This document shows positions 1,209 through 25,638 of a stretch of DNA of 64,000 nucleotides, in pieces (the stretch's first letter is position 1; every line of letters starts with the position of its first letter). The DNA comes from Chitinophagaceae bacterium. GTDB lineage: Bacteria > Bacteroidota > Bacteroidia > Chitinophagales > Chitinophagaceae. A program made the position numbers and the translations under genes. Under the pieces are notes generated by a model that did not search any database, was not told the DNA's origin, and saw only the letters and a program-made list of their open reading frames with translations. The stretch covers positions 1 through 64,000 of the forward strand of contig JAHBTL010000006.1 in NCBI GenBank assembly GCA_019638615.1, written 5' to 3'.

Positions 1209-1248
1209 AATGATGTAAAGCAGCGCCCGGACATGAAAGTATACTGTG

Positions 1249-1274
1249 TGGCTAAGCGCAAAAGGCTTTAGCCA
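1249..1274 (+). other. Stem-loop between cytochrome c and nosZ
   Basis: TGGCTAA (1249-1255) and TTAGCCA (1268-1274) form a perfect 7-bp stem with a 12-nt loop in the 144-bp gap between the cytochrome gene and nosZ. There is no T-run after it, so it is not an obvious intrinsic terminator; it may act on mRNA stability or processing between the two genes. Confidence 0.3.
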
Positions 1275-1352
1275 TTCCACGAATCTCACATCATTACCAG
1301 GCCTCACTATAACCTGTTTAAATTTTCAACTTTAATTTGAAACTCTATATTT

Positions 1353-3326: not shown

Positions 3327-3369
3327 AGAATCACCTATACCTGATTTAAGTATATTCTGAATTTCTGAT

Positions 3370-3405
3370 AAAGGGCAGCATGTTTAATACATATTGCCCT
3401 TTTTA
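3370..3405 (+). terminator. Rho-independent terminator after nosZ
   Basis: AAAGGGCA (3370-3377) pairs with TGCCCTTT (3395-3402) and runs into a T-rich tail (TTTTTATTT). It lies 44 bp after the nosZ stop codon, so nosZ may be transcribed at a different level from the accessory genes behind it. Confidence 0.65.
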
Positions 3406-3494
3406 TTTACACTTTCATTGGAGCCGTAGCTAGCAAAAAACACCTGTCATAACTCTTTGCCTGCCTTTGAACCAGTGAGAGAAAATGAATTTTT

Positions 3495-6485: not shown

Positions 6486-7249
6486 GAAGGATATTAAAAT
6501 ATGTAATACTGGATATTATAAAAAATAAGACGGTCATAGCATATACGATCATGCTTTCATTGTTTTCCTGGGGCACTTTCGCCCTGGAAGACAATGCATC
6601 AAAGAGCCTGCTTAGCTTACTCAATATAGTATTGCTGATCGTACCGCTGATGTCGGTACTGTTCGCTACCATTTATGTATACAACAGCAGCGAGTTTATT
6701 GAGCTACTGGTAAGTCAGCCTGTTAAACGAAGTAAAATATGGAACGCATTATTTACAGGGTTATCCATTAGCCTGATCATCGCTTATGTTGCAGGCGTGG
6801 GCGTTCCATTATTACTGTTTTCCGATACAGGAACAGCGCTGATCATGATCGCTGCGGGATCTTTGCTGTCTGCCATTTTTGTAGCTATAGCATTTTTAAG
6901 CAGCATCCTTACAAGGGATAAGGCAAAGGGGATCGGTATCTCTATCATGCTGTGGCTGTATTTTTCATTGCTGTTTGACGGATTGGTTTTATTCCTGTTT
7001 TTTCAGTTTTCCGATTACCCTATTGAAAAAATCGTGGTAGTGCTGAGTGCCTTAAGCCCTGTAGATCTTTTTCGCATTTTGGTTTTACTGCAGCTCGATA
7101 TCTCTGATATGATGGGCTATGCGGGGGCTGTTTTTGAGAAATTCTTTGGTAACCAATGGGGACTCCTGATATCATTTTCACTGCTGGTATTGTGGATCAT
7201 AGTTCCATTTTACCTGTCGCTGAAAAAATTTAAAAAGCAAAACCTGTAA
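6482..7249 (+). CDS. nosY: NosY, ABC-2 type permease for NosZ maturation
   Basis: A 255-residue polytopic membrane protein with about six transmembrane helices (first at roughly 15-32, last at 230-247) and the ABC-2 permease layout: SSEFIELLVSQPVKRSKIW is the typical coupling loop after the second helix. It forms the membrane part of the NosFY transporter. Its ATG overlaps the nosF stop codon. Last gene of the core nos cluster. Confidence 0.92.
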   Translation: MRRILKYVILDIIKNKTVIAYTIMLSLFSWGTFALEDNASKSLLSLLNIVLLIVPLMSVLFATIYVYNSSEFIELLVSQPVKRSKIWNALFTGLSISLIIAYVAGVGVPLLLFSDTGTALIMIAAGSLLSAIFVAIAFLSSILTRDKAKGIGISIMLWLYFSLLFDGLVLFLFFQFSDYPIEKIVVVLSALSPVDLFRILVLLQLDISDMMGYAGAVFEKFFGNQWGLLISFSLLVLWIIVPFYLSLKKFKKQNL

Positions 7250-10899: not shown

Positions 10900-12102
10900 T
10901 TACGCCAAAGGGAATGGATCTTTAAAATAAATGCCTTTCTCCATTTCAATACACTCTTCCCCTGTGCAGAGGCAGGCTTCGAGTTCATTGTAGATTATCT
11001 TTTTATTGAGGTGCTGCCCGATAATTACAATTTCATTGTAACGGTCCCCAAATCTTTTGTCCCATTTTTTCTCGATTAAATCCCTGTTATCTATAAATGC
11101 CTGGTAGCGGATACGCTCTTTAAAAGGCATACTGCACCACCACACTCCTGCTTTTTCGGCGCGCAGGCTGCCGCCAGCCTGGCTCCAGTTTACAGCCTCA
11201 TCCGGCCGGGATGCCAACCAGAACAAGCCTTTGCTCCTGATGATATTGGAGTGCCATTTTGTATGGAGGTAATTCCAGAAACGCTCCGGGTGAAACGGAC
11301 GCCTGCTGCGAAAAACAAAACTGCTGATACCATATTGTTCGGTTTCAGGGGTATGCACAGGTTTGTTCAGTTCCTGTATCCAGCCTGCGCTTTCACTGGT
11401 TTTCTCAAAATCAAACAAGCCGGTATTAAGAATATCACCCGGAGCTACTGTTCCAAAATTGCATTCAACAATGCGGGCGCCGGCATTCAGCTTTCGGATA
11501 ATGGCCTTTAGCATTGACAGCTCCTCTTTACTGACCAGGTCAGTTTTATTGACCACGATCACGTTGGCAAATTCAACCTGGTCATTCATCAGGTTTACAA
11601 GGGTGCGGTTATCTCCATCCATATTGGTTATCTGCCTGCTTTGCAGCGTATCATCGCTGCCATAATCTTTCAGAAAATTGAATGCATCCACTACGGTAAC
11701 AAGCGTATCCAGCCTGGAAAATCTTGTAAGATCAATCCCGAGCTGCTCGTCTGCATATGAAAATGTTTGCGCTACCGGTAACGGTTCACTAATGCCGGTG
11801 CTTTCTACCAGCAGGTAATCAAACCTGTTCTCCCGCGCCAGCTTTTCCACTTCCAGCAACAAATCTTCCCGCAGTGTGCAGCAGATACAACCATTGCTCA
11901 TTTCTACCAGCTTCTCCTCTGTACGGCTAAGTGTTTGTTCATTTTCCACAAGACGTGCGTCAATATTGACTTCGCTCATATCATTAACAATGACGGCCAC
12001 CCGAAGATTTTCCTTATTATGCAATATATGATTGAGCAAAGTTGTTTTACCTGCCCCTAAAAAACCGCTTAAAACCGTAACAGGCAAAAGATTCCTGGTC
12101 AT
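10900..12102 (-). CDS. COG0523 (CobW-type) GTPase, probable zinc metallochaperone
   Basis: A 400-residue G3E-family GTPase: Walker A GFLGAGKT (13-20), the metal-binding CICC motif (72-75), a NKTD base-recognition motif, and a C-terminal CobW_C domain ([20 protein letters not shown]). Extra cysteines close to the C-terminus ([10 protein letters not shown]) may also bind metal. Relatives (YciC/ZigA/ZagA type) hand zinc to client enzymes when zinc is scarce and are typically Zur-controlled. The start is the ATG at 12102, directly before the Walker A domain; an upstream GTG/other start would overlap the neighbour. Last gene of an operon headed by a palindromic operator at 12980-13010. Confidence 0.88.
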
Positions 12103-12160
12103 AGCTGTAATACTATTTATTGATTGAAAAATAAGTTTGCTTATAAATAAGTAAGGGTGA

Positions 12161-12298
12161 TCAGCGTATAATGCCAAACTTAACAGCGCCCGGGGTAAAC
12201 TGCTTTACGATGGCATCATGATTTTTATGACAACCGCAACTGCCCAACCCCGAAACAGCCACAAAAGCTAAAAATGCCAGGAAGATCTTTTTATTCAT
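12161..12298 (-). CDS. Small lipoprotein, 45 aa, with Cys/His cluster
   Basis: A tiny open frame, ATG at 12298, stop TGA at 12161. It encodes a lysine-start signal peptide ([12 protein letters not shown]...), a lipobox (GLGSC, Cys20) and immediately after it CGCHKNHD, a dense Cys/His metal-ligand cluster, then a short tail. The start overlaps the end of the upstream 77-aa gene by 8 bp (ATGAATAA), so translation is probably coupled. It lies between that gene and the COG0523 GTPase. The family is not known to me. A periplasmic metal-binding lipopeptide is the natural reading (inference). Confidence 0.6.
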
Positions 12299-12524
12299 CA
12301 TAATTAGAATTGTTAACTGCATGCTTTTCCTGAAGAGCGCAGGTAAACCAACCTATCACCTGCTGCCGGTACTGCTCTCCATAGCATTTTACAAATTCAA
12401 TAGTGTGCCTGTTTGTATCGTCAGACAAGCTGCGGATCCTCTCCGCGATAAATGTTGATGAAAGGTGTAAACCGCAACGCCTGGTAATACAATCCTTCCA
12501 GTCTGGAAAATTTTCCGGTACCAT
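12291..12524 (-). CDS. Hypothetical protein, 77 aa, four cysteines
   Basis: A short, soluble, mostly helical protein without signal peptide. Cysteines at 12, 17, 47 and 62 (DCITRRC, KCYGE, FTCALQ) and two or three histidines could bind a metal. I do not recognise the family. Its ATG overlaps the merC-like stop by one base and its end overlaps the small lipoprotein start by eight, so it is an integral part of the operon and is likely real despite its size. Function in metal handling is inferred from the neighbours only. Confidence 0.6.
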   Translation of the reverse strand: MVPENFPDWKDCITRRCGLHLSSTFIAERIRSLSDDTNRHTIEFVKCYGEQYRQQVIGWFTCALQEKHAVNNSNYDE

Positions 12525-12955
12525 TACAATGATTTTAAATCGTGGGAATGATCACTGTCATGAGTGCAACATCTCCTCCTGTACACCCAGTTAGCCGTAT
12601 GCGCTGTCAGGATGCAAACTATTCCGGCCGTTTTACATATAGCTTCAGAAGCAATCCGGTTAAAGCCCGCTATATTTCCGGCGATCATGGCAATCATGCC
12701 TGCCACAAATACTCCCATTGGCCACAACCTGCGATGATGGCTTTTGTACCCGCCTGTATACAGCGCGGCAATACCGGCTAACATTGATATGATCAATGTA
12801 GCAGTTTCGATAGCCGGGTTTTCCAGCATCTCCATCCCAAGCAATGGAAGCGTTGTAACGAGTAAAGGAAGCAATAAACAATGCACCGCACAAAACAGTG
12901 ACGCCCCCACTCCTATCATATCCCATTTTGTACTGTACGAAATTTTATCCTGCAT
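12524..12955 (-). CDS. MerC domain membrane protein
   Basis: A 143-residue protein with four predicted membrane helices. The MerC motif CAVHCLLLP (C22, H25, C26) lies in the first helix, and the cytoplasmic tail ends in CCTHDSDHSHD, another metal-binding cluster. MerC proteins transport mercury in mer operons, but in Bacteroidota MerC-domain proteins are common beside COG0523 chaperones, where zinc or another divalent metal is more plausible. The ATG at 12955 is used; an in-frame TTG at 12976 would start within the predicted -7 box. First gene of the operon. Confidence 0.8.
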   Translation of the reverse strand: MQDKISYSTKWDMIGVGASLFCAVHCLLLPLLVTTLPLLGMEMLENPAIETATLIISMLAGIAALYTGGYKSHHRRLWPMGVFVAGMIAMIAGNIAGFNRIASEAICKTAGIVCILTAHTANWVYRRRCCTHDSDHSHDLKSL

Positions 12956-12973
12956 ATAAAAACTTAATTTCAA

Positions 12974-13010
12974 CAAAGTTAATTATTTGCAACAATGTTG
13001 CAAATAATTA
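12974..13010 (-). promoter_or_regulatory. merC-operon promoter with embedded Zur-like operator
   Basis: On the minus strand a -33 TTTG (13001-13004) and a -7 TAACTTTG (12974-12981) are 19 bp apart, a good Bacteroidota promoter. The spacer is filled by a perfect palindrome with 15-bp arms and a one-base centre (12980-12994, 12996-13010); its core is TTGCAAC-AAT-GTTGCAA (12987-13003). A repressor bound here would block polymerase. Fur-family palindromes of this kind control zinc genes, and the downstream genes fit Zur. No Zur gene lies in the window, so the regulator is inferred. Confidence 0.7.
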
Positions 13011-13133: not shown

Positions 13134-13580
13134 TTACCGGCCAATTTCTTCTGCATTTTCCAGCACATAGTAAAACTCCCTGATATCGGTAGCGTTGAGC
13201 CTGAGCGTTCCCCTGAATTTCCTGAACTGATCAATGCGGTATTTTTTGTTGGGTGTTTTAAGCCTGACTGTCATTACTGATGCCGGCCCTGCATTTCCGC
13301 AAAAGAAGCAGGATGCATACGGATTGGCTGAAAGCGCAATGAATTTTCCTTCTTTATCTACCGGTACTATGTATCCTTTTACTTCAACGGTTGTTTTGTT
13401 CAATGCCTGCAACACAGGAGGAAATTTTGGAAACAGGATATTTCCCTGCACTTCCGGGAGATATTTTTTTTCAAAATCTATATTCTCCAGATCCCGCCAG
13501 TCTATATACGTGCTGTTCTGTTGCGCCTCGCAAAACAGGCACATACAAAACAGTATACAGCACAGTATTTTTTTACGCAT
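13134..13580 (-). CDS. DUF3299-like secreted protein
   Basis: A 148-residue protein with a signal peptide (MRKKILCCILFCMCLFCEAQ). The segment VEVKGYIVPVDKEGKFIAL...ASCFFCGNAGPASVMTVRL matches the layout of DUF3299 proteins (a GY/F-V-V-P-L strand, then a cysteine-containing turn, then a V-x-V strand). DUF3299 proteins accompany FtsX/LolD-type ABC systems in proteobacterial zinc loci such as Vibrio zrg. The start overlaps the end of the FtsX-like permease by 8 bp. CxxC (FFC) residues could bind zinc. Last gene of the nine-gene operon. Confidence 0.7.
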   Translation of the reverse strand: MRKKILCCILFCMCLFCEAQQNSTYIDWRDLENIDFEKKYLPEVQGNILFPKFPPVLQALNKTTVEVKGYIVPVDKEGKFIALSANPYASCFFCGNAGPASVMTVRLKTPNKKYRIDQFRKFRGTLRLNATDIREFYYVLENAEEIGR

Positions 13581-14802
13581 TGGCTAAAGTTTTAGAAATG
13601 TTCAATCGATATGCTTTTACAGAAGGAATAAGAGCCGCGGTTATACCAATTAAAATTGTTCCTGTCAGCAACAGGAACTGGTCTTTATTCCACAGGTTAT
13701 TTGTGATCAGCGTAAAGCTGTATTCATCCGCAGCTTTTTCATTTAACCAGTACATACCGGTAATGCCAAGCAGCATGCCGCCGGCAAAGCCTGCCAGGCA
13801 CAACAATATTGCTTCTGATACTACCAAAGTAAATAATTTCATCCTGCTGCAACCCAGGCTGCGGATAAGCGCCAGTTCGTATTTTTTTTCTGACAGCCGG
13901 CTGTAAAGAGCAATAAATATGCTTAGTCCTGCCACCAGCAATAAGGTAGCTGCCACAGCTTTTACAGAATCCATCCCTATACCCAGCAGGCCTAAAAGCC
14001 TGTTTATTTCAAGGGTTGGAGAGGCTGATTGCATATTTGTGCTTTCATTAATGAACCGGGGTAAGCTGAACATTGCCTGCGGAGACCTGAACGTAAGGAG
14101 CAAAGCAGTTATTTGTTTACCTGTGGTCTTATCTTCATCATGCCCTTCTTCGTGTTGCTCATGCTCTGCATGTTCATGACGTTCACTATGCACCCTTTCT
14201 ACGGATTCAACCGGGGTAAGAATAAGATTATCCAGCACACTGCCTGTAGGGTTCAGTATACCTTTCACTACATACTTAAAATGTTCATGATCATCATCTG
14301 AATCTTTACTTAAACCATGCGTGCCTGTAAATGAACTGCCGATCTTTAACTCCTTCTTCTTTGCTACATTACTTCCTGCAACCACTTCCATGGGATTTGA
14401 AAACATGCTTCCCCGGGAAAAGCTGCTGTTATACTTCAGCAAATAGGTTGAATCGGTTCCCACGATCCGGAAGCCATCATAATTGTCTCCGTAAGCAAGC
14501 GGTGTTACCTGCTCTATCATCGGGTTAGTTAATAGTTTCTCCGCTTCTTCTTTGCTGATGTTCCCCGTGGGCGCATCCAGGTGATAAACCGCAGACAATA
14601 CCAGTTGCAACGGGCTGCCTTTTGCTCCTACCACCAGGTCAATATTTTTAAGATCCCTGTTGAATTTATCTTCTACCTGCTTGTTAACCGCGAGCAAAAG
14701 TGATATGATGCCTACACCGGTGCTCAGCAAAATCATACTTAGCAGGGTAGATCCCCAATGGTGCAAAAGATTCCGAAGAATGAGTTTAGCCAACATAAAC
14801 AT
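13573..14802 (-). CDS. FtsX/MacB-like ABC permease with histidine-rich periplasmic loop
   Basis: A 409-residue type VII ABC permease: one N-terminal helix (about 17-38), a large periplasmic MacB-PCD-like domain, and three C-terminal helices ending at about 395. The periplasmic part contains an exceptional histidine cluster (residues 205, 209, 211, 214, 217 and 221, within HSERHEHAEHEQHEEGHDED) plus DDHEH at 171-174. Such loops bind Zn2+ and are found in zinc transporters. With the adjacent LolD-like ATPase this resembles ZrgB/ZrgC of Vibrio. The stop overlaps the DUF3299 gene start. Either ATG at 14802 or at 14796 could be the start. Confidence 0.82.
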   Translation of the reverse strand: MFMLAKLILRNLLHHWGSTLLSMILLSTGVGIISLLLAVNKQVEDKFNRDLKNIDLVVGAKGSPLQLVLSAVYHLDAPTGNISKEEAEKLLTNPMIEQVTPLAYGDNYDGFRIVGTDSTYLLKYNSSFSRGSMFSNPMEVVAGSNVAKKKELKIGSSFTGTHGLSKDSDDDHEHFKYVVKGILNPTGSVLDNLILTPVESVERVHSERHEHAEHEQHEEGHDEDKTTGKQITALLLTFRSPQAMFSLPRFINESTNMQSASPTLEINRLLGLLGIGMDSVKAVAATLLLVAGLSIFIALYSRLSEKKYELALIRSLGCSRMKLFTLVVSEAILLCLAGFAGGMLLGITGMYWLNEKAADEYSFTLITNNLWNKDQFLLLTGTILIGITAALIPSVKAYRLNISKTLANA

Positions 14803-15421
14803 GTTCCTTATATTCTAAAAAATCTTTCACCCGCTGATCATGCGTAACGATCACCAGTGCTACTCCGTTTTGCCGGGAGTGGGTCATCAGTAATTCCGTT
14901 ACCGTCCGGGCATTATTATCGTCAAGACTGCTGGTAGGTTCATCAGCCAGCAGCAATGCAGGTTTACTGATCAGCGCCCTTGCGATAGACACCCTTTGTT
15001 TTTCGCCCGCGCTTAACGAAGATGGCAACCGGTACAACTGATCGTTAATACCTAATTCAACAGCCAGTTTCTCTATTTCACTCTGAGGGATATGATCGCC
15101 GCTGAAATAAGGAGCAAGTGCAATATTGTCCCTTATATTTAAAGCGCTCATAAAATGAGGATGCTGGTACACCACCGAAATATACTGTCCCCTGAATTTA
15201 TCCAACACCGGCCCCGACAGCGAAGTCATGTACTGTCCGTTTATCTTTATCAGGCCCTGATCCGGTTTTAACAGACCTGCCAACAGGTGCAGCAAGGTTG
15301 TTTTGCCACTGCCCGATTGTCCCGTGATCAACAAAGGTTTTTCTACGGAACAAAACAGCGGCGGATATTTAAACGTTTTACCGTTCTTATAACTAAATGT
15401 TAGTGCAGATGTATGCAGCAT
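14786..15421 (-). CDS. LolD/MacB-like ABC transporter ATP-binding protein
   Basis: A 211-residue ATPase with Walker A GQSGSGKTT (34-42), signature LSAGEKQR and Walker B LLLADEPTSSLDD, typical of the LolD/MacB/ZrgC class. It overlaps the FtsX-like permease gene by 17 bp and starts 3 bp after the alkaline phosphatase stop, so it is in the same transcript. It powers the His-rich permease; this class drives periplasmic conformational work or extraction more than classical uptake. Confidence 0.88.
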   Translation of the reverse strand: MLHTSALTFSYKNGKTFKYPPLFCSVEKPLLITGQSGSGKTTLLHLLAGLLKPDQGLIKINGQYMTSLSGPVLDKFRGQYISVVYQHPHFMSALNIRDNIALAPYFSGDHIPQSEIEKLAVELGINDQLYRLPSSLSAGEKQRVSIARALISKPALLLADEPTSSLDDNNARTVTELLMTHSRQNGVALVIVTHDQRVKDFLEYKEHVYVG

Positions 15422-15424
15422 GAT

Positions 15425-16831
15425 CTATATTTTATTTTCTACCTCTGCTGCCTGCAACATCAGGTAATGCAGATCCGTATTTTTTACAAATGGTTTCAGC
15501 AATTCACTTCCCGGGCCGAACATGCACAACTCTACATAATCGCCGGAATGATCCATGCTTATCCAGCCCACTGAATTATGTTTTTTCTGTATTTCCGAAT
15601 AATGCTTAAACGGCAGCTTTTTATAATTGTACAGTCCTTCTTCTTTTTCAAGTCCCTTATAAAAATTCAAAAGGTATCTGGCGTCTTCATCCGCAAGGCT
15701 GATGCCATTGATATCGTATACCTGGTCTTTAAGCTGCTGCAGGTTAAACCCGGAATGAATGCTGTTCAACAGGTATTCATTGGTAAACCTGTATGCGGCG
15801 ATGCTGTTAAATTTCTTTTCAGCGTCTACGCCGTAAATAGTGCCGGGGTTGGCATTGCCGTGGTCGGTGGTAATGATCACTAAGGTATTCCCGTCCTTTT
15901 CCGCAAAATCCATTGCCACTTTTATGGCTTCGTCAAAAGCCAACTGGTCGTGTATCAGCGCTGCCACGTCATTGGCATGCGCCGACCAGTCTACTTTGCC
16001 TCCTTCTATCTGCAGCGCGAATCCGTTTGCATGATCTTTCATCTGGTCAATAGCCCCACGCGCCATTTCCGCGAGGGTAGGCGTTTGTTGCAACTGCGGG
16101 GTATTTGCTCTGTCTATTGAATAAGGCAATGCGCCCGTGTTGAAAACGCCCAGTACAGGTTTGTTCTTTTCTATCTGCGGCAATCCAGTACGATCTTTTA
16201 TCACCTGGTAGCCTTTTTGCTTATATAAATCGTATACATCTTTTTTATCTTTTCTTTTCCCGGGATTAAAGAATTCATCACCGCCGCCCATCATTACATC
16301 AAAGCCAATATGTGCATACATTTCCGCAATTTCCGGTTGGGCATTCCTGCTGTCTGAATTCACACAAAAGCCGGCAGGTGTGGCATGGGTGATGGTAACG
16401 GAAGTAACACAGCCTGTTTTTTTACCGGCATTTTTAAATTTTTGCCAGATAGGCAAGTACTTTTCACCGTTTGCACCTACGTTTAATACCCCGTTTTTTA
16501 CCCTTACACCGCCGCCGAATGAGGAGCTTGCCGCTGCTGAATCAGTAACAATAGAGCTGGCGGAAGCTGTATCCATCAAAGCCCGCGACACTTTGTTTTC
16601 GAGGTAATAATTCATCCAGTTGCTGGTTTTGCCGAGTATGTTGCGGGAGTACAGGTCTGCCATAGCCAGTGTGCCTGTGCTCATGCCATCGCTTACCATG
16701 AAGATGATATTGCGGGCTTTTCTTTTTAATCCTTTTGCAGGAATAGCTGATGCCTGCAGCGGAGTTTGGCGCAAAAAAGCGCTTCCTAAAAAAGCAAGTG
16801 AGCCGTTGCGGAAAAAATCTCTTCTTTGCAT
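15425..16831 (-). CDS. Alkaline phosphatase (PhoA-like), Tat-exported
   Basis: A 468-residue member of the alkaline phosphatase family. Signal peptide begins MQRRDFFRNG, a twin-arginine type. Active-site features: metal ligand D48 (MVSDGM), nucleophile S98 in TDSAAASS, THATPA, GGKVDWSAHAND (ligands to the first zinc), TTDHGN and a final DHSGD histidine. It cleaves phosphomonoesters in the periplasm and is itself a zinc enzyme. Unusual context: it sits between the DUF3526-linked ATPase and the LolD-like ATPase in an operon that appears zinc-regulated; one idea is release of zinc from phosphate-rich ligands such as phytate (inference). Confidence 0.92.
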   Translation of the reverse strand: MQRRDFFRNGSLAFLGSAFLRQTPLQASAIPAKGLKRKARNIIFMVSDGMSTGTLAMADLYSRNILGKTSNWMNYYLENKVSRALMDTASASSIVTDSAAASSSFGGGVRVKNGVLNVGANGEKYLPIWQKFKNAGKKTGCVTSVTITHATPAGFCVNSDSRNAQPEIAEMYAHIGFDVMMGGGDEFFNPGKRKDKKDVYDLYKQKGYQVIKDRTGLPQIEKNKPVLGVFNTGALPYSIDRANTPQLQQTPTLAEMARGAIDQMKDHANGFALQIEGGKVDWSAHANDVAALIHDQLAFDEAIKVAMDFAEKDGNTLVIITTDHGNANPGTIYGVDAEKKFNSIAAYRFTNEYLLNSIHSGFNLQQLKDQVYDINGISLADEDARYLLNFYKGLEKEEGLYNYKKLPFKHYSEIQKKHNSVGWISMDHSGDYVELCMFGPGSELLKPFVKNTDLHYLMLQAAEVENKI

Positions 16832-16841
16832 ATTGTTTGTT

Positions 16842-17543
16842 TTATATGGTCTCCAGGTATAATTGCTGCAATTCGCCTGCAGTAATATCGGTAGTACGGA
16901 TCGTATGTACCAGCACGCCTTGTTTCATAATGCCGATCCTTGTTCCCACATTCACGGCATTGAATATGTCGTGTGTAGCCATAAAGATGGTCTTACCTTC
17001 TGCGGCCAGCCCTTTGCATATCTCCGTAAATTCCGCTGTAGCTTTAGGATCAAGCCCGCTCGTGGGCTCATCCATCAGGATCACGTCTGCATTTTTTGCC
17101 AGCGCGATAGCAATCCCTACTTTTTGCCGCATGCCTTTTGAATAAGTAGACAGCCGTTTGTGATGCGCTTCTTGTTGTAATCCCGCCCTGGATAAATAAC
17201 CGCACAGCATTTCCTGCGAATATTTGAAACCAGCAAGGCGGCTAAAGAAATCAAGATTTTCAATACCGTTCAGGTTCCCATATAATTGCACCACTTCCGG
17301 TATATAGGCGATAAATTTCTTCGTATCGGATTTACCCGGTAATACTTCCACCCCGTTAATAAGCGATTTACCGGAGCTGGCTTCCGTAAAGCCTAAAAAG
17401 AGATTAATAGTGGTTGTTTTACCTGCGCCGTTCTGCCCTAAAAGACAAAATATTTCCCCTTTCTCGAGTTGCAGATTTAACTTGTTTACGGCTGTAGTGC
17501 CGTTATACTGTTTGCTGAGATTAACTGCCTGTAAAGTATTCAT
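16842..17543 (-). CDS. ABC transporter ATP-binding protein, partner of the DUF3526 permeases
   Basis: A 233-residue ATPase of the DrrA/CcmA type: Walker A GQNGAGKTT, signature YSKGMRQKV and Walker B VILMDEPTSGLDP. It lies 10 bp downstream of one DUF3526 permease and 10 bp upstream of the phosphatase, and with the two permeases (17554-20378) forms a complete ABC-2 exporter-type module. The substrate cannot be read from sequence. Confidence 0.88.
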   Translation of the reverse strand: MNTLQAVNLSKQYNGTTAVNKLNLQLEKGEIFCLLGQNGAGKTTTINLFLGFTEASSGKSLINGVEVLPGKSDTKKFIAYIPEVVQLYGNLNGIENLDFFSRLAGFKYSQEMLCGYLSRAGLQQEAHHKRLSTYSKGMRQKVGIAIALAKNADVILMDEPTSGLDPKATAEFTEICKGLAAEGKTIFMATHDIFNAVNVGTRIGIMKQGVLVHTIRTTDITAGELQQLYLETI

Positions 17544-17553
17544 GTTGTATGTT

Positions 17554-18960
17554 TTAAAGTGAATGATGTTGCTTTGATTTTAACAATACTATTACCAAAC
17601 TCAGTATGGACCAGAGCGCCAACGGTGCTAAGTATTTTGCAGGAGATTGGCTGATTACGACAGGAAAAACTTTCGGCATTCCTTCAAAATCGCTCTTTGT
17701 AAAATGCGGTTTTGTTAAATAGTTCTCGTATAAATATCTAGCCTTACGCTCTCTCACATTAATAATGGCTTCTTCAAATGCCTGCTGATTTGCCAGTGTA
17801 CTTTGGCTAATGGTAGTAAAAGACCGCATCACACCTCCAACAGGATTGATCCAAAAATTATTTATTTCAGCCTGTAACAACAGCTCACTGTTTTTCATGG
17901 AAGCATGATGTATTTGCTTCTCTTTTGATAAAGCCTGCAGGGTATTGCTAAAGGATTTGAAGTAGTTTGTATCGTGCAACTGAATACTGTTCTTCCATTG
18001 CGGGTATTGTGCGAAAACCATTTTTTCATGCTCAGCAAATGGTATGTCGTAGCCTTTAAAATCAATATCCCGGTAATCCGAAAATACTGTTTTATCAACA
18101 GGAGGATATTTATAGCTGAACCATGCATTGGACAATCCCGGGATGGCTATCAAAAGCAATACCCAAAGCCCTGCCAATATTATTGCATTAATAAGAGAGC
18201 TGAATTGAAACCGTTGTATGACCGCTATTATTAATAACCAAAACATTGTATACAATAATCCTATAGTCCACCACTGCAAAAAGCTTACTGCTGAAAAACC
18301 GGGCAATGCCGAAAGAACAATGTAAGAAAGCAGGCATACAACCAGTAACGGGAGCAATGCAACCAGCCATCTGAAAAGCAAACGCATATTTGTTATGGCA
18401 GTAAGAGAAGTTGTTGCCTGCACTTTTAGCAAAGGCGTTACAGCGTTTTCCTTTTCAGCCGATTGAATATCGTAAGTGAATGACAGTAGTAATAATGGGA
18501 GAATAAACAAAATGAAAAATGAGCTGTCTAAATTACCTGCAAACAATTCTTCCGGGTTTTTAAACTCTGCGTATTGATTGTTAAAATATGGATCATTGAA
18601 ATGAGCGCTTAACAATGGCGTATATATGTCATTTTGTCCAGTGCTTAATACGGCTAACGGGGAAATATTTTTAGCTTGCACCGCCTTTAAGTTCCATTCC
18701 AGTACGTATGGAGCGCCAATATCACTATCTGTTCTTTTTCCTTTGTTTTGTAACGTGTCAAAAATTGACTTTACACGGCTTTCGTTTTTTGCAGCGCTCT
18801 GTAATGTTTTTTCAATTGACGTTTGCTGAAAGTCATAAACAGATTTTCCCTGCAGCAATGCGAAAATTCCAATAGCAGAAAAAATGAACACTGTTGCTAT
18901 CATTCCTTTGCTTCGTAAAAGTTGCTTTATTTCGTATTTAAAAATTGTTATCAGCATCAT
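17554..18960 (-). CDS. DUF3526 ABC-2 type permease (first of pair by position)
   Basis: A 468-residue membrane protein with one N-terminal helix (about 21-40), a large extracytoplasmic domain (about 45-150), a bundle of five helices in the middle (about 150-290), another soluble segment, and a C-terminal helix. This layout and the GAPYVLEWNLKAVQAKNISPLAVLSTGQND segment of the first external domain fit DUF3526 ABC-2 permeases. The start overlaps the stop of the neighbouring paralogue by one base, so the two are made together and probably heterodimerise. Confidence 0.82.
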   Translation of the reverse strand: MMLITIFKYEIKQLLRSKGMIATVFIFSAIGIFALLQGKSVYDFQQTSIEKTLQSAAKNESRVKSIFDTLQNKGKRTDSDIGAPYVLEWNLKAVQAKNISPLAVLSTGQNDIYTPLLSAHFNDPYFNNQYAEFKNPEELFAGNLDSSFFILFILPLLLLSFTYDIQSAEKENAVTPLLKVQATTSLTAITNMRLLFRWLVALLPLLVVCLLSYIVLSALPGFSAVSFLQWWTIGLLYTMFWLLIIAVIQRFQFSSLINAIILAGLWVLLLIAIPGLSNAWFSYKYPPVDKTVFSDYRDIDFKGYDIPFAEHEKMVFAQYPQWKNSIQLHDTNYFKSFSNTLQALSKEKQIHHASMKNSELLLQAEINNFWINPVGGVMRSFTTISQSTLANQQAFEEAIINVRERKARYLYENYLTKPHFTKSDFEGMPKVFPVVISQSPAKYLAPLALWSILSLVIVLLKSKQHHSL

Positions 18961-20378
18961 TACAGTACAGTTATTTTTTTTGATGTTATTACAACGGCAG
19001 TTGCCATTAATAGCAACATGGTTATAAGCGCCGTTATTTCAACAGCAGTGTTTTCAAGCTTTCCTTTTATACTCATTTGAGAATAGCTGATATCCTTCAC
19101 GGTTGCCCAGTAATCAGGCGTTACTTTCCAATCCCAGTCATTTGTTTTACTTCCATCGTATGCCAATGAAAAATTTAGTTTTTTTATTAAGTATCTCCTG
19201 TACTTTTCCGCATCAGCTAAAAAATTAAGCTGGCTGTTAAAATCACTTTCACAGACGCTCATAGATATGTTTCGCAAAGACAAATAGGGGTTTACAAATG
19301 ATGCCCACCTGCTGATGCTGTTCTGCCTGGCTATATTGTTCCTTACCCGCTTAAAGTGTTTATCATACACCAGGTTGGCATAATCCTCATCCGCCTGCAT
19401 CAGCAAACCATCTGCATTAATGGGCAGATCGGCAAGGGATTTTACCCCGTAATGCTTTAATAAAGAATCTTCAAATATCCTGCTTCGTTCATCACTTGGG
19501 TCATGTCCGTTAATTCCTTTCTTCCGGTCTTCTCCTGATGCTTTTTTGAAATCGAACTTATGCTCCATCGGGTATATTTTGCCTCCGGCATTTGCCGTTA
19601 TTTTGGGCATTACGATCATAAGTAATACCCAGGCAGATACTTGAACAACCAGGGAAGTTTTTCCATGCCTCACCCATGCGCTTACCAACACGCTGAAGCC
19701 CGTAATAATAAGAAGGTATATGGCATATAGAAGGAACCAAACGAGAATGGTCCTGAAAGGGATGTGCGTATCAGCGGCTGTCACGGTTTTGTAAGCAGTA
19801 AGTTGTATTAACAGGCCGGCAACAGCTAATATCATTACCAAACTATAGTTCGATAAAACTTTGCCCCATACATACGATTGCAGTTTCAGGCTTTGTACAG
19901 CAATCAGTTTCAGGTTCTGATTTTCTTTGTCGGCGCTTATTGAATTAAAACAGAGTATAATAATAAACAACGGCAACAGCACCTGTAACATCCAGGCAAA
20001 GCTTAATTCGCCAAACCTGCTTAGCTCAGACCTGCCTTCTGCCGGGCTGAATGCGGCTTCGTTTTGCGCATGCGCTTCCAGTCGCAATACAGCGCCGGTA
20101 AAAGGACGTATTCCATTGTCTAAAAACTGCATAGCGCTTATGGGCTGAAAAGCAAAGTGGCCATAATGCGCACTATTGTGCGGGTTTTGCGGGCCCTGGT
20201 TAAGCCATGCAGTTCGTACAGTTTCTCTGGCTTTTTCAAAGCTTTGTAACCTGGCTTTATACGCTATCACGCTATTAAAAGCTATCAGGATAAATAAGAG
20301 CAATAATATAACAGACAGCACTTGCAGGTATTTTGTGCGTACAGCCTGCTTAAAAGTATTATTGAATACAGTTTTCAT
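18960..20378 (-). CDS. DUF3526 ABC-2 type permease (second of pair)
   Basis: A 472-residue paralogue of the previous permease with the same topology. The first external domain has the family pattern WLNQGPQNPHNSAHYGHFAF followed by AMQFLDNGI. Helices at about 18-38, 130-150, 178-270 and 440-465. The DUF3526 pair next to a TonB receptor is a recurrent Bacteroidota arrangement whose substrate has not, to my knowledge, been settled; the Zur-like operator ahead of this operon points to zinc or a zinc chelate. Starts 12 bp after the TonB receptor stop. Confidence 0.85.
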   Translation of the reverse strand: MKTVFNNTFKQAVRTKYLQVLSVILLLLFILIAFNSVIAYKARLQSFEKARETVRTAWLNQGPQNPHNSAHYGHFAFQPISAMQFLDNGIRPFTGAVLRLEAHAQNEAAFSPAEGRSELSRFGELSFAWMLQVLLPLFIIILCFNSISADKENQNLKLIAVQSLKLQSYVWGKVLSNYSLVMILAVAGLLIQLTAYKTVTAADTHIPFRTILVWFLLYAIYLLIITGFSVLVSAWVRHGKTSLVVQVSAWVLLMIVMPKITANAGGKIYPMEHKFDFKKASGEDRKKGINGHDPSDERSRIFEDSLLKHYGVKSLADLPINADGLLMQADEDYANLVYDKHFKRVRNNIARQNSISRWASFVNPYLSLRNISMSVCESDFNSQLNFLADAEKYRRYLIKKLNFSLAYDGSKTNDWDWKVTPDYWATVKDISYSQMSIKGKLENTAVEITALITMLLLMATAVVITSKKITVL

Positions 20379-20390
20379 TTAACTTTTACA

Positions 20391-22760
20391 TTATTTTACA
20401 AAACGATAAGCAATGGTCGCTACAAAATCCCTTGGCGTACCAATGAAAACCGACCGGGAAGAATAGCTTCCCTGTACGTATTTTTTATTTAGCATATTGT
20501 TGGCATTTACATAAAGGCTGATTCTTTTAATATCATACTGAATCATTGCATCTACCACGCTATATGATGGTAAAACAACTCTGTTAATGTCAGAAGTTTT
20601 AACGTCTCTGATAAAGCGACTACTGGTATATCGGTATCCTGCCCCGATTTTTAGCCCCTGCCCGTTCTTTATAAAACTGTATGTTGTCCAGATGCTGGTA
20701 ATATGCTTCGGTGCGTTACTGAATATCATTCCTATTTCGTCCGGCTCATTGCTTTTTGTAATGCGTGTTTCATTGAAAGCATAGTTTGCAATTACATTCC
20801 AGTTTTTAATAACAGTGCCGGTAAGCGTTGCTTCAAATCCTTTACTGCGTACCTGGCCCACCGGCCTCATTAAATTACCTGTAGGATCATTTAAGTCAGG
20901 CGTAAGTACATTGTTTTTATTGATGTGATAAAAAGCAACAGTGGGCACCAGTTGTCCTTGTAAAAATTCTCCTTTGGCGCCTGCTTCAAACTGGTTGGCT
21001 GTTTCCGGCTTAAATGGCCCACCGGATAATTTGTTATTAGAGAACTGCGGTTGAAAGCCGGAATTATAATCTGCATACAATGAAACCTGTTTTGTTGGCT
21101 GAAATACTATTCCGAAACGCGGAATAAACGCAGTGGTTTTAAGAGGTCTTTCTTCATAAGTTCCAAAATCTTCGTAATTAACAGAATCAGCTCTGTAAAA
21201 ATTTCCATAATGATTGTATCGTAACCCAATGATGCCTTTCCATTTTTCCCCGATAGAAAACTGATCCTGGATATAAGCTCCCATTGTTTTGAGCTGGAAT
21301 ATTTCATAGCTGCTGTACAAATAATCTGCAGCCAGTGGGCCGGGTTCAGGTATAAACGGAGAATGGTCCGGATGGGTAACACTAATGCTGTCGGCAGAAT
21401 AAATCCGGTAACCGGCAGGATAAATCCAGTTTTCCTTATGAAGATCAACACCGGCAGTGAAGCTGTTTTTAATTATACCGATATTAAATATCCCGGTGGT
21501 GTAAGCATTTAACGTTGGCGTAGTGATCCTTGTTTTTGAATATGTTTTGATTCGTTCTACCTTGTTATCATTAGTGGGGTCTGTGTAATCTCCGATGCTG
21601 TAATAAATAGCATCAGCGTTAGACTGGGATAATCCAGTTAACAGGTGCAGTCCCCAATTATTATTTATTTTGTGATGTAGCTGACCCTGCAGTTGAAAAG
21701 AATTCCCTTTAAATTTTGCATCATTACCATGAAAATTAAAATCTGTCGGGGAAGAAAAAACATCTTCTTTTATAAAGGGCAATGTAATTTCATAATTACT
21801 TGTGCTGTTATCATAATTATAATTAGCATTTAATTGCAGGGATGTTTTGTCGTTTGCTTCCCATTTAACAGCGGTAAAAATGAGCGCATTTTGATTTTTC
21901 CAGTCTTTTGTTACCTTCCCGCCATTTTCTGTGCCAAAACCGGCAACGTAATACAGGCTTTTATTTTTATTTATGCTTCCCGTCACATCTGCCTGCATAC
22001 GAAACAAACCAAAGCTGCCGGCACTGACAGCGCTATTCGTTGTCAGGCTTTTTTTAGGTTGTTTGGTGACGAAATTTATGTTGCCTCCCATGGCATTTTC
22101 GCCATACAGTATAGCTGCCGGTCCCCGAAGCACTTCAATGCTTTCTATATTGGCCAATGAGTTGGATACTCCCTCCGGGAACATGCTTCCTTTTATTCCG
22201 TTGGTAAGAAAACCTGCGGCTGTAGTATTGAAACCACGAAAGTTGTAAGAGCCGTAATTGGAAGACACATTCACGCCTGCAACGTCTTTCATTGCATCGC
22301 TTACCGTATAAATTTGTTGCTCATTAAGCGTGCTTCGGCTTACGCTCTGTATGCTTTGCGGCAGATCTTTTGCCGCTGTATTGGTACGGGTAAGCGAAGC
22401 GGTATTGGTAATAGCCAATCGTTTCTTCGCTGTGACAGTTACTTCTTCCAAAGTGTTGAGTACTGTATTGAGCTGAAGATTGAGCGTTACTTTTTCTCCC
22501 CCGGTAATTATAATTGTTTTGCTTTTTGCCGCATAACCAACGCCTGTTGCCAAAAGCGTATAACTGCCGGCTTGTATACTGGCAATAAAAAAATGCCCGT
22601 CAATATCGGTAGCGGTTATGTGCCTGCTACTTTCAATCTGAATAGTGATTCCCTGCAAAGCCACCTGGTTTTCATCATAGATATTGCCTTCTATTGTTGC
22701 TTTCTGTGCAAGGCCTGCAACTGATAACATGACCAAAATGGCTGTAAATATTTTTTTCAT
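20391..22760 (-). CDS. TonB-dependent outer-membrane receptor
   Basis: A 789-residue receptor: signal peptide (cleaved near GLAQ), a carboxypeptidase-regulatory-like beta sandwich (about 22-105), a plug domain (about 120-230, with SIESIEVLRGPAAILYGENAMGGNINF) and a 22-stranded barrel ending in FVATIAYRFVK. The plug and barrel are of the siderophore type (FhuA/FhuE-like), without SusC features. No striking His cluster is seen in the barrel, unlike ZnuD. In this operon it may import a zinc-chelate (zincophore) or another metal complex (inference). Confidence 0.93.
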   Translation of the reverse strand: MKKIFTAILVMLSVAGLAQKATIEGNIYDENQVALQGITIQIESSRHITATDIDGHFFIASIQAGSYTLLATGVGYAAKSKTIIITGGEKVTLNLQLNTVLNTLEEVTVTAKKRLAITNTASLTRTNTAAKDLPQSIQSVSRSTLNEQQIYTVSDAMKDVAGVNVSSNYGSYNFRGFNTTAAGFLTNGIKGSMFPEGVSNSLANIESIEVLRGPAAILYGENAMGGNINFVTKQPKKSLTTNSAVSAGSFGLFRMQADVTGSINKNKSLYYVAGFGTENGGKVTKDWKNQNALIFTAVKWEANDKTSLQLNANYNYDNSTSNYEITLPFIKEDVFSSPTDFNFHGNDAKFKGNSFQLQGQLHHKINNNWGLHLLTGLSQSNADAIYYSIGDYTDPTNDNKVERIKTYSKTRITTPTLNAYTTGIFNIGIIKNSFTAGVDLHKENWIYPAGYRIYSADSISVTHPDHSPFIPEPGPLAADYLYSSYEIFQLKTMGAYIQDQFSIGEKWKGIIGLRYNHYGNFYRADSVNYEDFGTYEERPLKTTAFIPRFGIVFQPTKQVSLYADYNSGFQPQFSNNKLSGGPFKPETANQFEAGAKGEFLQGQLVPTVAFYHINKNNVLTPDLNDPTGNLMRPVGQVRSKGFEATLTGTVIKNWNVIANYAFNETRITKSNEPDEIGMIFSNAPKHITSIWTTYSFIKNGQGLKIGAGYRYTSSRFIRDVKTSDINRVVLPSYSVVDAMIQYDIKRISLYVNANNMLNKKYVQGSYSSRSVFIGTPRDFVATIAYRFVK

Positions 22761-22942
22761 TTTATTGTTTTATTAAATTGTTTCCATAGCCAGTTCTTTG
22801 TAGCATTGTATGTATTGTATCGTAATCCGATGACAACGATGACGAATGTTAATTACATCCGTGATATCTGCATCAACGGTACCAATCAGGTTGTTGTTAA
22901 ATGGACCGGTCTACAATACCCGTAGTATTCAGGCGCCGGTTT

Positions 22943-23308
22943 TTAGCAATTAAGGAATAGCTGAATGTTAGAAAATACAGGCGGTCCTTTATTCTGCGAT
23001 GGGAGAGCAATGAAATGGACAAGCACAGGCGTATAATGTCCGTTCTGAAATGAAAATTCAGTAACGGCAGCAATTACCGGGACAATAATATCATCATTAT
23101 ATACAGAATACTGGTGATGGCAGATGAGGCAATTTGCCTCGGACACCGTATCTGCAATTTTAGATACAAAAGAAGTTTTAATACCGGCATCGGTAATAGG
23201 CTTTTCTGCATCATGATGGTGCCATAACTGAACAGGCGTTGCAATAAACGCATACACAACCAGCAGTAAAATAGCCGTGAGTTGGCGATATCTTTTAGTT
23301 AAATGCAT
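22943..23308 (-). CDS. Small membrane-anchored protein with HHHD and CLICHHQ motifs
   Basis: A 121-residue protein: one N-terminal hydrophobic segment (about 10-27), then LWHHHDAEKP and SEANCLICHHQYSVYNDD, both likely metal-ligand clusters, and a second, weak hydrophobic stretch. I do not have a family name; its size and layout recall DUF2946-like proteins found with copper and zinc genes. It is the first gene behind the second Zur-like operator and its start codon is only about 7 bp from the operator core. A 182-bp gap separates it from the TonB receptor. Confidence 0.7.
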   Translation of the reverse strand: MHLTKRYRQLTAILLLVVYAFIATPVQLWHHHDAEKPITDAGIKTSFVSKIADTVSEANCLICHHQYSVYNDDIIVPVIAAVTEFSFQNGHYTPVLVHFIALPSQNKGPPVFSNIQLFLNC

Positions 23309-23314
23309 ATACTA

Positions 23315-23358
23315 TTGCAACCTTGTTGCAAATATAGTGAAAAGTATTATAAAGCAAA
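23315..23358 (-). promoter_or_regulatory. Promoter of the nine-gene operon with second Zur-like operator
   Basis: The core TTGCAAC-CTT-GTTGCAA (23315-23331) has the same 7-3-7 architecture and arm sequence as the operator of the merC operon. On the minus strand it overlaps a -7 box TATATTTG (23329-23336) with a -33 TTTG 18 bp upstream (23355-23358). The IS end begins 14 bp beyond the -33 box. Repeated occurrence at two promoters of metal genes makes a shared repressor very likely. Confidence 0.68.
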
Positions 23359-23754: not shown

Positions 23755-24060
23755 TACCCTTGTCATACAAAAGAAGGCTGGTAAAAAAACTTGATTTTCA
23801 ATTCATCCGTAATAATGTCATTACAATCTGCCGCGGCCATTCATCTGGCTGTTTAATTAACCTGCCAATCTCACTTTTTCAACCATAATTTCAGATGCAA
23901 GGCAAAACGCTGAGACGTTTTTTGTCCGTAAAAACAATTTTTATTTTTACTCTTTCAAGGGCGCATTTCAAATTTTCGGGGGCTGCCCAAAAAGATCAGC
24001 CCTATTCTTTTGGAAGCAACAGGGCTGAGGTGTAATTTTAGATACCACTCAAAAAATTAC

Positions 24061-25638
24061 ATGGCAAAAATAAAGTCCCCGGTTGTATTTAAGCAGTATA
24101 ATCAGCAACAAAGTTTATTATTACCGCCATCACTCACAGAACTGATCGGCGAAAAGCACCTGGTACGAGTAGTTAATGAGGTAGTGGAGAGGATGGATAT
24201 CAGCGATTTAATTAATCTTTATGAAGGAGGTGGTACCAGCGCCTACCATCCCCGGATGCTGTTAAAAGTACTGTTATATGCATATAGCGTTAAAATCTAC
24301 ACGGGTCGTAAAATAGCCCGGGCACTGGGTCAGGATATTCATTTTATGTGGCTTAGCGGGATGAGCCGTCCGGACTTCCGCACCATCAATAATTTTCGCA
24401 GCAGCAAAGCCAAAGCGGTAATAGAAGTATTGTTTAAGGAACTATTGGAGTTCCTGCTGGAGCACAGCTATATTAAAATGGAAAATTACTTCTGTGATGG
24501 CAGCACCTTTCGGGCCGATGCCAACGGGCACAAAATGATCTGGAAAAAAAATGCAGAACGTTATAAAGGGAATACCGAAGAAAAATGCAGGCAATTATTT
24601 AAACAAATAGATGAACTGAACACTCAGGAGGATAGCCGGTATGGCAATAGCAACCTGGAGGAAAATGGAGAGGCGTCCACCGTTACAAAAGAGGCGATCA
24701 ATGAACAGGTATCCCGGCTCAATGAAAAGCTTAAAACAACAACAGATAAAAGAACCCAACGAAAAGCAGCAACGATAAAAAAGCAGCTTGAGGAAGCAGA
24801 AAGCAAAATAGATAAATACGATGCTCAGATCAGCCAGGCTGGAAAACGCAGTGGTTATAACAAAACAGATGTTGATGCCAGTGCCATGATGATGAAAAAC
24901 AAAGTAGAGATCCTTCCGGCTTATAATGTGCTGGCTGGCAGTGAAGAGCAGTTTATTACCGGTGTGAGCGTGCATCAAAACACCAATGACGGGGTATGCT
25001 TCAAAGACCATATGGAACAGGCTGCCGTGCAACAACCCATTGCTCCTGACAGGGTGATAGCCGATAGTATCTTTGGAACAGAGCAAAACTATGAACTGCT
25101 CGCAGCCAAACAGATAGAAAACTACCTGAAATTCCCTATTTATCATGCAGAACAAACAAAACGCTATAAAAGCAATCCCTTTCTCAAAGACAACTTCCCT
25201 TATGACCCTTTAACGGACAGCTATGAGTGCCCCAATGGCTTGCGGCTCGTTTTTAAAGGCAAACATCAACAAACACATAAGCGTACAGCTTACCAATCGG
25301 TTATCAAAGCATATGAATGTACCGATTGTAGGGGTTGTTCTTTTTACCAGCAATGTTGCAAATCTACCAGGGGTGAAAATCGCCTGATACAAATAAATGA
25401 AAAACTGGAAGATTATAAACAACAAGCCCGCCAGAATCTGGGAACAGAAAAAGGCATCCGGTTAAAAAAACAGCGCAGTATTGAGATCGAAAGTTGTTTT
25501 GGCGATATCAAACATAATATGGGCTTTAGGCGCTTCCATTTACGTGGATTAAAGAAGGTGAAAACAGAAATGATCCTGGTAGCCATGGCACATAACCTCA
25601 GGAAAGTTCACCTCAAAGGGCTTCAAAAGGCAGCTTAA
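24061..25638 (+). CDS. IS1182-family transposase
   Basis: A 525-residue DDE transposase. The N-terminal DUF772 region (LLPPSLTELIGEKHLVRVV...YHPRMLLKVLLYAYSVKIYTGRKIARAL) is followed by a charged insert with coiled-coil character (about 170-260) and the DDE core: FCDGSTFRADANG, VIADSIFGTEQN and the final glutamate in IEIESCFGDIKHNMGF. A zinc-ribbon-like CTDCRGCSFYQQCC precedes the last acidic residue. The ATG at 24061 starts directly at the conserved MAKIKSP; the frame extends up to a TTG at 24010 without conserved features. It appears intact and may be active. Confidence 0.93.
   Translation: MAKIKSPVVFKQYNQQQSLLLPPSLTELIGEKHLVRVVNEVVERMDISDLINLYEGGGTSAYHPRMLLKVLLYAYSVKIYTGRKIARALGQDIHFMWLSGMSRPDFRTINNFRSSKAKAVIEVLFKELLEFLLEHSYIKMENYFCDGSTFRADANGHKMIWKKNAERYKGNTEEKCRQLFKQIDELNTQEDSRYGNSNLEENGEASTVTKEAINEQVSRLNEKLKTTTDKRTQRKAATIKKQLEEAESKIDKYDAQISQAGKRSGYNKTDVDASAMMMKNKVEILPAYNVLAGSEEQFITGVSVHQNTNDGVCFKDHMEQAAVQQPIAPDRVIADSIFGTEQNYELLAAKQIENYLKFPIYHAEQTKRYKSNPFLKDNFPYDPLTDSYECPNGLRLVFKGKHQQTHKRTAYQSVIKAYECTDCRGCSFYQQCCKSTRGENRLIQINEKLEDYKQQARQNLGTEKGIRLKKQRSIEIESCFGDIKHNMGFRRFHLRGLKKVKTEMILVAMAHNLRKVHLKGLQKAA

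Follow-up and report, generated by a model that had tools for sequence, protein, structure and literature searches.

How might a member of the Bacteroidota obtain zinc when neither a ZnuB-type permease nor a ZIP importer is found in its genome? The question is raised by nine genes at positions 13134–23308, minus strand, of the 64,000-nucleotide stretch analysed here (the window; positions 1 to 64,000 of contig JAHBTL010000006.1, assembly GCA_019638615.1, Chitinophagaceae bacterium), which belongs to a draft genome of 7.18 Mb and 87 contigs (window contig G000:C56). An initial annotation had described them as a tight operon that could form a complete outer-to-inner membrane system for zinc or a zinc-chelate, and the open reading frames (ORFs), their strand and their packing were all borne out. 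Judged by sequence, the nine-gene set is a composite, with a content like that of Caulobacter znuK and znuGHI at one end, a diverged ZrgC-ZrgB-ZrgE core without ZrgA at the other, and a PhoA-type alkaline phosphatase between them. The operon is a real and conserved composite built of known modules, very probably zinc-regulated, and a zinc-starvation operon is probably the best explanation of the whole.

A palindromic box and zinc-type control

The nine genes are preceded by a perfect operator-like palindrome, TTGCAAC-CTT-GTTGCAA (23315–23331). The pattern TTGCAAC-N3-GTTGCAA occurs without mismatch at only two sites in the genome, where 0.03 would be expected. The second, TTGCAAC-AAT-GTTGCAA (12987–13003), is the core of a 31-bp inverted repeat and heads the unit downstream of the operon. 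This unit, also on the minus strand, comprises a MerC-family membrane protein (12524–12976; PF03203, 4e-20), a 77-aa ORF (12291–12524) whose relatives lie close to COG0523 or MerC in loci L040, L165 and L168, and a COG0523/CobW GTPase (10900–12177, start likely internal near 12090; PF02492, 1.9e-56, and PF07683), a putative zinc metallochaperone. With up to two mismatches allowed, 36 sites were found in the genome versus 13 for the reversed pattern. The site before the operon overlaps TTTG-N18-TATATTTG on the coding strand, which we take to be close to the Bacteroidota promoter consensus, and it is thus placed where a repressor site is expected. A general scan was uninformative, with 20 promoter-like sites against a mean of 27.6 in shuffled sequences and 20 terminator-like sites against a mean of 11.4.

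When any inverted repeat was sought in 123 regions upstream of linked genes, from at most 91 sources and without supplying the box, the commonest arms at spacing 3 were ATGCAAC/TTGCAAC. The degenerate box WTGCAAYNNNRTTGCAW is present in 35 of these regions and 23 of the 91 sources, compared with 60 hits over 1.70 Mb of sequence from those loci; by gene, it precedes MerC in 14 of 17 regions, Fur in 6 of 10, COG0523 in 6 of 15 and ZrgC in 7 of 62. Among ten loci unused in finding the box, seven carry it, at nine sites in total, beside MerC, Fur/PhoA, ZrgE, receptor or DUF3526 units; none was found in L147, L169 and L170, and L164 is not a wholly independent case because its source is a congener of that of L043. 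The box stands directly before a receptor-DUF3526-DUF3526-ATPase unit in Spirosoma (L149), and in L166 a perfect copy separates PhoA-ZrgC-ZrgB-ZrgE from a Fur gene that is read divergently. The box thus recurs at the loci of relatives, a linkage for which the initial annotation had proposed to search.

No ABC-3 (ZnuB-type) permease was found in the draft genome, the single weak match being a FecCD protein beside heme genes, and no ZIP importer was matched either. In the same ABC-3 search 13 of 14 control genomes gave matches; the one without a true match was Caulobacter, which shares this trait with the window genome. The operon itself differs from ZnuABC in having no ABC-3 permease. With neither importer found, the need for an alternative zinc route is plausible. 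Zinc control of the operon is well supported by these sequence data, because the box sites, the linkage to Fur, COG0523 and MerC, the kinship to two Zur-regulated systems described below and the missing importers all point to zinc. Both palindromes would then be zinc-responsive operators.

Two Fur-family proteins were found in the genome. The one at G000:C28:9495-11195 (L051) is likely Zur; its gene lies near an SCO-like gene (by reading), and the same locus has a further MerC gene headed by a box with one mismatch. Kin of this protein adjoin ZrgE in Pedobacter and Chitinophaga deserti loci. Another one-mismatch box, at G000:C6:108617, neighbours a TonB receptor unit and what reads as an MntR/DtxR-like gene. 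An ORF in L038 that was taken as Fur and carries one of the 41 Fur labels had no Pfam FUR match at 0.001.

A receptor and DUF3526 module heads the operon

The first five genes encode a small protein (sHC; 22943–23308) with, by reading, a hydrophobic start and HHH and CxxCHH motifs; a TonB-dependent receptor (20391–22760; PF00593, 6e-56, and PF07715); two ABC-2/DUF3526 permeases, A (18960–20378; PF12040, 2.6e-25, and PF12679, 6.4e-16) and B (17554–18960; PF12040, 1.3e-6); and the ABC ATPase of this pair (16842–17543; PF00005). sHC has no Pfam match of its own above cut-off, and the receptor falls into a siderophore-receptor subfamily (TIGR01783, 301 bits versus a cut-off of 223.5). sHC and the receptor gene are separated by 182 bp; from the receptor gene to the last gene no gap exceeds 12 bp, and overlaps of 1, 17 and 8 bp join the two DUF3526 genes, the ZrgC-like ATPase and permease genes, and the permease and DUF3299 genes, respectively. 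Pfam confirmed the identities first given to the receptor, the DUF3526 pair, the ATPases, the alkaline phosphatase and the FtsX permease.

In content these genes match the Caulobacter crescentus Zur regulon, which includes the receptor znuK, the ATPase znuG and the ABC-2 permeases znuH and znuI, with Zur repression proven by mobility shift and reporter assays (PMC4176598). Shared are the TonB receptor, the ABC-2 ATPase, the two ABC-2 permeases and a zinc-type operator, in the window a putative one. The likeness is one of gene content; gene order and box differ, and the window joins ZrgCBE and PhoA to the set. Caulobacter is the sole carrier of DUF3526 among the 14 control genomes, a hint of possible kinship to CC1518-CC1520.

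The module recurs on plasmids. Twelve plasmid records hold a relative of permease A, and in all seven that were read an ATPase lies beside the two permeases (the second Methylocystis permease is annotated only as a permease subunit). A TonB receptor accompanies them in six, the exception being Methylocystis, so that receptor, ABC-2 ATPase and two permeases stand together in Blastomonas, Hymenobacter, Aureibacter, Spirosoma, Eleftheria and Comamonas. A DUF2946 or hypothetical gene precedes the TonB receptor in other DUF3526 loci; in Eleftheria a small DUF2946 protein comes first, the place held by sHC in the window. Searches of the literature for 'DUF3526', alone or combined with zinc, gave no matches.

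The genome's six DUF3526 domains are confined to two loci, on contigs C56 and C14, each headed by a box (no and one mismatch, respectively) and an sHC gene; the idea that such genes are scattered through the genome was therefore rejected. The second locus (G000:C14:37765-54500; L049, L050) holds the sHC paralogue, several TonB receptors, a DUF4374 protein and two further DUF3526 pairs, beside which no ATPase of the ABC-2-pair kind was seen. Within the window operon, a 1.2-kb tract covering the ATPase gene and the start of PhoA (16364–17567) is 83% identical in DNA to the congener G008, with longer flanks at no more than 68%, and the ATPase proteins are 96% identical; by these identities the tract marks a recent exchange within the genus.

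The last three genes form a Zrg-type unit without ZrgA

In Vibrio, ZrgC denotes an ATPase, ZrgB a permease and ZrgE a DUF3299 protein (PMC9817125, Table 1). The last three genes of the operon, which the initial annotation likened to ZrgBC and a neighbour, encode a ZrgC-like ABC ATPase of LolD/MacB type (14786–15421), a ZrgB-like FtsX/MacB-type permease (13573–14802) and a ZrgE-like protein (13134–13580), and the likeness held. The permease matches FtsX and MacB_PCD in Pfam, and it aligned over 404 columns with a profile of three ZrgA-linked permeases and one from Catenovulum (hhalign E 4.5e-58) and with the P. aeruginosa locus (tblastn E 2e-21). The ZrgE-like protein fell below the Pfam cut-off for DUF3299 (E 0.1) and was upheld by profile comparison (hhalign probability 95.8, E 8e-9) and by fold: 4hsp, which is PA4066, was its sole PDB match at E <0.001 and the top row in a second fold comparison. 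The ZrgC assignment of the ATPase follows from Pfam (PF00005) and linkage only.

The six-histidine loop cluster first noted in the permease is real (H205, 209, 211, 214, 217 and 221), and lies partly inside the sole stretch of the AlphaFold model with pLDDT below 50 (212–227). Compared with ZrgABCDE of Vibrio and PA4063-PA4066 of P. aeruginosa, the window shares the ATPase, the separate FtsX/MacB-type permease, the DUF3299 protein and the order C-B-E. Differently from these systems, no protein of the operon matches ZrgA (DUF2796), the permease has a His-rich stretch, its ZrgE carries CxxC where classical ZrgE has ACxH, and PhoA, a receptor and the DUF3526 module are added. The ZrgA-bearing loci L139 and L143 also show GTTAT-type palindromes (by eye) in place of the TTGCAAC-type box. 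ZrgA is essential to the V. cholerae system; a znuA mutant that also loses zrgA survives about 100-fold less well without zinc (PMC9820375). A search of 58 genomes, the window's own included, returned no ZrgA, a result that supports no claim of genome-wide absence because no control gave a match.

The closest solved fold to the permease is MacB (5gko, E 3e-17). The window differs from MacAB-TolC in that the ATPase is encoded by its own gene, whereas that of MacB is fused, and no MacA or TolC is among the nine. The permease fold also resembles LolCDE; nothing in the window speaks for lipoprotein release.

Gene order and distribution

The congener G008 (L040) keeps the order of eight of the nine genes, its receptor being only 37% identical, so the gene order is not unique to this genome. 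All nine together were seen only here; in L038, L041 and L043 the receptor is swapped or DUF3526 is missing. The combination first called new is thus new as a full set, while its halves are recognisable as known modules.

Of 582 confirmed loci (alignment query), the 80 best-scoring named ones were taken, and 78 entered the counts because L127 has no permease ORF and one more failed the length filter. Within 5 kb of the permease, the ATPase was found in 74, ZrgE in 72, Fur in 27, COG0523 in 22, MerC in 21 and PhoA in one, with Fur, MerC or COG0523 present in 33. At 5 kb or more from the permease (79 loci), the counts fell to two for Fur, two for MerC and one for COG0523. The usual Pedobacter order is MerC-ZrgC-ZrgB-ZrgE-Fur with COG0523 divergent. 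In the window's genus the permease is present in 4 of 12 genomes, own included; a scan of the wider genome-contig collection with the single permease sequence found no relative. A search of the phylum at E 0.001 does not discriminate (394 of 395 genomes match) because generic FtsX permeases match; at a best E of 1e-30 or below, the true permease family was counted by eye in 64 of 395. Bacteroidota-like Zrg loci also occur in metagenome-assembled genomes labelled Akkermansiaceae (L112) and Euryarchaeota (L129), possibly as mis-binned contigs.

Alkaline phosphatase is a recurrent partner of the Zrg-type unit

The sixth gene (15425–16831) encodes a PhoA-type alkaline phosphatase (PF00245, 1.3e-68) that aligns with 7kwd over nearly its full length. 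Across 17 PhoA sequences, 14 D/H/S/T/E/R positions are invariant, and the metal and catalytic positions, as we presume them in E. coli numbering, are kept. A twin-arginine-like start (by pattern) is found in six of six PhoA of the window kind (window, L038, L040, L041, L043 and L057) and in none of the other eleven.

Among 13 family genomes with the permease (G000, G002, G007, G008, G013, G026, G453, G514, G534, G560, G638, G641 and G700), PhoA is at the locus in eight; it was not found there in G026, G514, G638, G641 and G700, the last a 6.8-kb contig. In G560 it lies on the other strand within a DUF3526 unit with its own box. Outside Bacteroidota, all 13 annotated plasmid loci opened from Deinococcota and Alphaproteobacteria (L140, L142, L144 and L152-L161) are operons of an alkaline phosphatase, a small CxxC protein, an ATPase and an FtsX permease, that is, PhoA-ZrgE-ZrgC-ZrgB. 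The hosts are Deinococcus radiodurans, D. wulumuqiensis, Thermus, Allomeiothermus, Rhizobium, Shinella, Qingshengfaniella, Azospirillum and five Paracoccus. Three of these loci came from the tblastn match list that also contained the P. aeruginosa locus and ten from 38 records, 15 of them from D. radiodurans, drawn with a PhoA-linked permease query. All 13 phosphatases are PF00245 proteins and all 13 small proteins hold a CPFC motif; eight of the latter, aligned, are ZrgE-like (hhalign probability 98.2, E 5.5e-14). PhoA was found by tblastn in L162, which has no annotation, and L137 (Aeromonas), also without annotation, was left out. No phosphatase lies within about 4 kb in the three ZrgA-bearing loci opened (L139, L141 and L143), and Catenovulum (L138) carries PhoD, a different family, on the other strand.

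These operons share PhoA, the CxxC ZrgE-like protein, the ATPase and the FtsX permease with the window and differ from it in several respects. Their PhoA come from other branches, with no twin-arginine-like start in ten checked, their permeases occupy another branch of the tree, and no receptor or DUF3526 was seen in the stretches read. Scored against what we take to be the Pho-box consensus, 4 of 10 alphaproteobacterial loci (two Rhizobium, Shinella and Azospirillum) have a Pho-box-like repeat 70–76 bp before PhoA, with one to three mismatches, each matched in at most 1% of 200 shuffles (14 loci tested). This suggests that phosphate starvation may induce the ABC unit there. The remaining six (five Paracoccus and Qingshengfaniella) have no convincing Pho box, P. 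aminovorans reaching four mismatches (p 0.04), and none was found in the four Deinococcota loci. We met no published name for these operons.

In trees, the window-family permeases fall inside Bacteroidota and their PhoA form a clade apart from the other PhoA-linked branch; deeper joins are unsafe because of midpoint rooting and long branches. The separate placement suggests that the PhoA-Zrg link had more than one origin, or was retained with frequent losses. By this recurrence across sequenced loci, PhoA is a repeated partner and not an accident of the window genome, and the partnership is the part most worth following.

A model for the operon and its rivals

As cytoplasmic zinc falls, a Zur-like Fur-family repressor, probably the Fur protein of contig C28, would leave the palindrome before the operon, and the nine genes would be made; the twin site would be freed simultaneously, giving MerC and COG0523. 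The TonB receptor would import a zinc chelate, and the ABC-2/DUF3526 pair with its ATPase might act as the inner-membrane step in the manner of Caulobacter znuGHI, which is presumed to provide the route in the absence of ZnuABC. ZrgC-ZrgB, a MacB-like machine presumably of two ATPases and two permeases, could act with ZrgE on periplasmic partners that bear zinc, in this case PhoA and the His-rich loop. Zinc would thereby be mobilised from chelates, phosphate esters or zinc proteins. What was observed directly is the gene content, the homology, the box sites and the conservation. The operator function of the boxes, the zinc response, the substrate, the way in which each ABC unit transports and what PhoA does all belong to the model.

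Several points weigh against this zinc-starvation model. The MacB-type and ABC-2 classes of permease are known mostly for export or mechanotransmission; the fold search, which agrees with MacB, fits either role better than import. Neither a solute-binding protein nor a ZrgA match is found among the nine proteins. Making PhoA, a zinc enzyme, during zinc starvation is paradoxical. The box was derived from the same regions in which it was counted and is not independent, so that the loci unused in finding it matter; 88 of the 123 regions are without it, and the second DUF3526 pair on C14 lies about 15 kb from its head box. Neither Fur nor MerC nor COG0523 occurs within 5 kb of the permease in as many as 45 of the 78 tallied loci, the distribution of the permease in the family is patchy (12 of 294 genomes, own included), and absences in a draft of 87 contigs are provisional. 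A study of P. aeruginosa modelled PA4064-65 as MacB and argued that it exports pyochelin-cobalt; cell zinc did not change (PMC11481552). The same source reports that mutation of the permease worsened low-zinc growth of a znuA zrmB mutant. Of the first proposal, zinc is well supported by boxes, linkage, homology and the missing ABC-3 and ZIP importers; complete outer-to-inner uptake is conjectural, given the missing solute-binding protein and the ABC-2/DUF3526 and MacB-like units.

The least unlikely rival is a metallophore cycle in one fused operon, in which the receptor and ABC-2 module import a metallophore-metal complex and the MacB-like ZrgCB exports the metallophore or excess complex. Such a cycle was proposed for PA2911-14 and PA4063-66 of P. 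aeruginosa, where a Zur-regulated receptor and ABC importer is linked to PA4064-65 (PMC11481552). The siderophore-type score of the window receptor and the MacB fold of its permease agree with it. However, the nine include neither a MacA/TolC partner nor a gene for metallophore synthesis; PhoA, MerC and COG0523 are left unexplained, and DUF3526 within 5 kb is rare in the tallied loci (permease A in two, B in one).

A somewhat less probable rival takes ZrgE-ZrgC-ZrgB as neither cytoplasmic importer nor metallophore exporter, the unit instead loading or stripping the zinc of periplasmic proteins, PhoA here and ZrgA in Vibrio and Pseudomonas. The 13 plasmid operons, the eight family genomes with PhoA at the locus, the four Pho-box-like repeats and the trees that set the window group apart all suit such a service. 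Against it stand the single PhoA in 78 tallied loci, the six alphaproteobacterial and four Deinococcota loci without a good Pho box, and the drawing of most plasmid loci with a PhoA-linked query. The wider form, a general ATP-coupled periplasmic machine moving zinc on or off dedicated proteins (ZrgA in Vibrio/Pseudomonas; PhoA in Deinococcota, some Alphaproteobacteria and the window family), is likewise unlikely. If true, a control switch between a Pho box and a Zur-like box would make PhoA either client or zinc source and reconcile the import and export readings.

An operon for iron or cobalt behind a Fur/iron box is improbable: the receptor is of siderophore type and either of the two Fur-family proteins could read the box, yet COG0523, MerC and homologues of two Zur-regulated systems accompany it, and no iron permease, reductase or synthesis gene is among the nine. 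A chance run of unrelated genes, which the transposase 0.7 kb upstream and the exchanged tract might suggest, is highly implausible given that eight genes keep their order in G008 and that these parts have come together behind this box repeatedly in other genera.

What the Zrg-type unit does is in dispute, the published work arguing for import in Vibrio and for export in Pseudomonas. Two zinc-response transport modules are already known separately from other bacteria. New is PhoA adjoining ZrgE-ZrgC-ZrgB across the Deinococcota/Alphaproteobacteria branch and the window family, which may help to tell the function of the disputed transporter; a phosphatase joined to this unit, with a phosphate-type site in some lineages and a zinc-type site in others, gives a direct handle on its role. 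Among the matches listed, no title or abstract start in the Bacteroidota Zur-regulon literature describes the operon, the box or a PhoA-Zrg link, nor do those on phosphatase, Zur and MacB in zinc starvation. The main text of PMC2770081 is without 'Bacteroid', TonB, FtsX, LolD and permease. We met no paper on zinc uptake in Bacteroidota without ZnuABC and ZIP; for that question the locus offers candidate genes, a conserved box and a group of organisms in which to test them.

Neighbouring genes

A DDE transposase (PF13751, PF05598) lies on the opposite strand at 24010–25638. At the other side of the operon, beyond the MerC-COG0523 unit, reading of the ORFs points to a nitrous-oxide-reductase-like cluster at 717–7249 (cytochrome, NosZ-, NosL-, NosD-, NosF- and NosY-like), accompanied by globin-like ORFs at 7296 and 10287.

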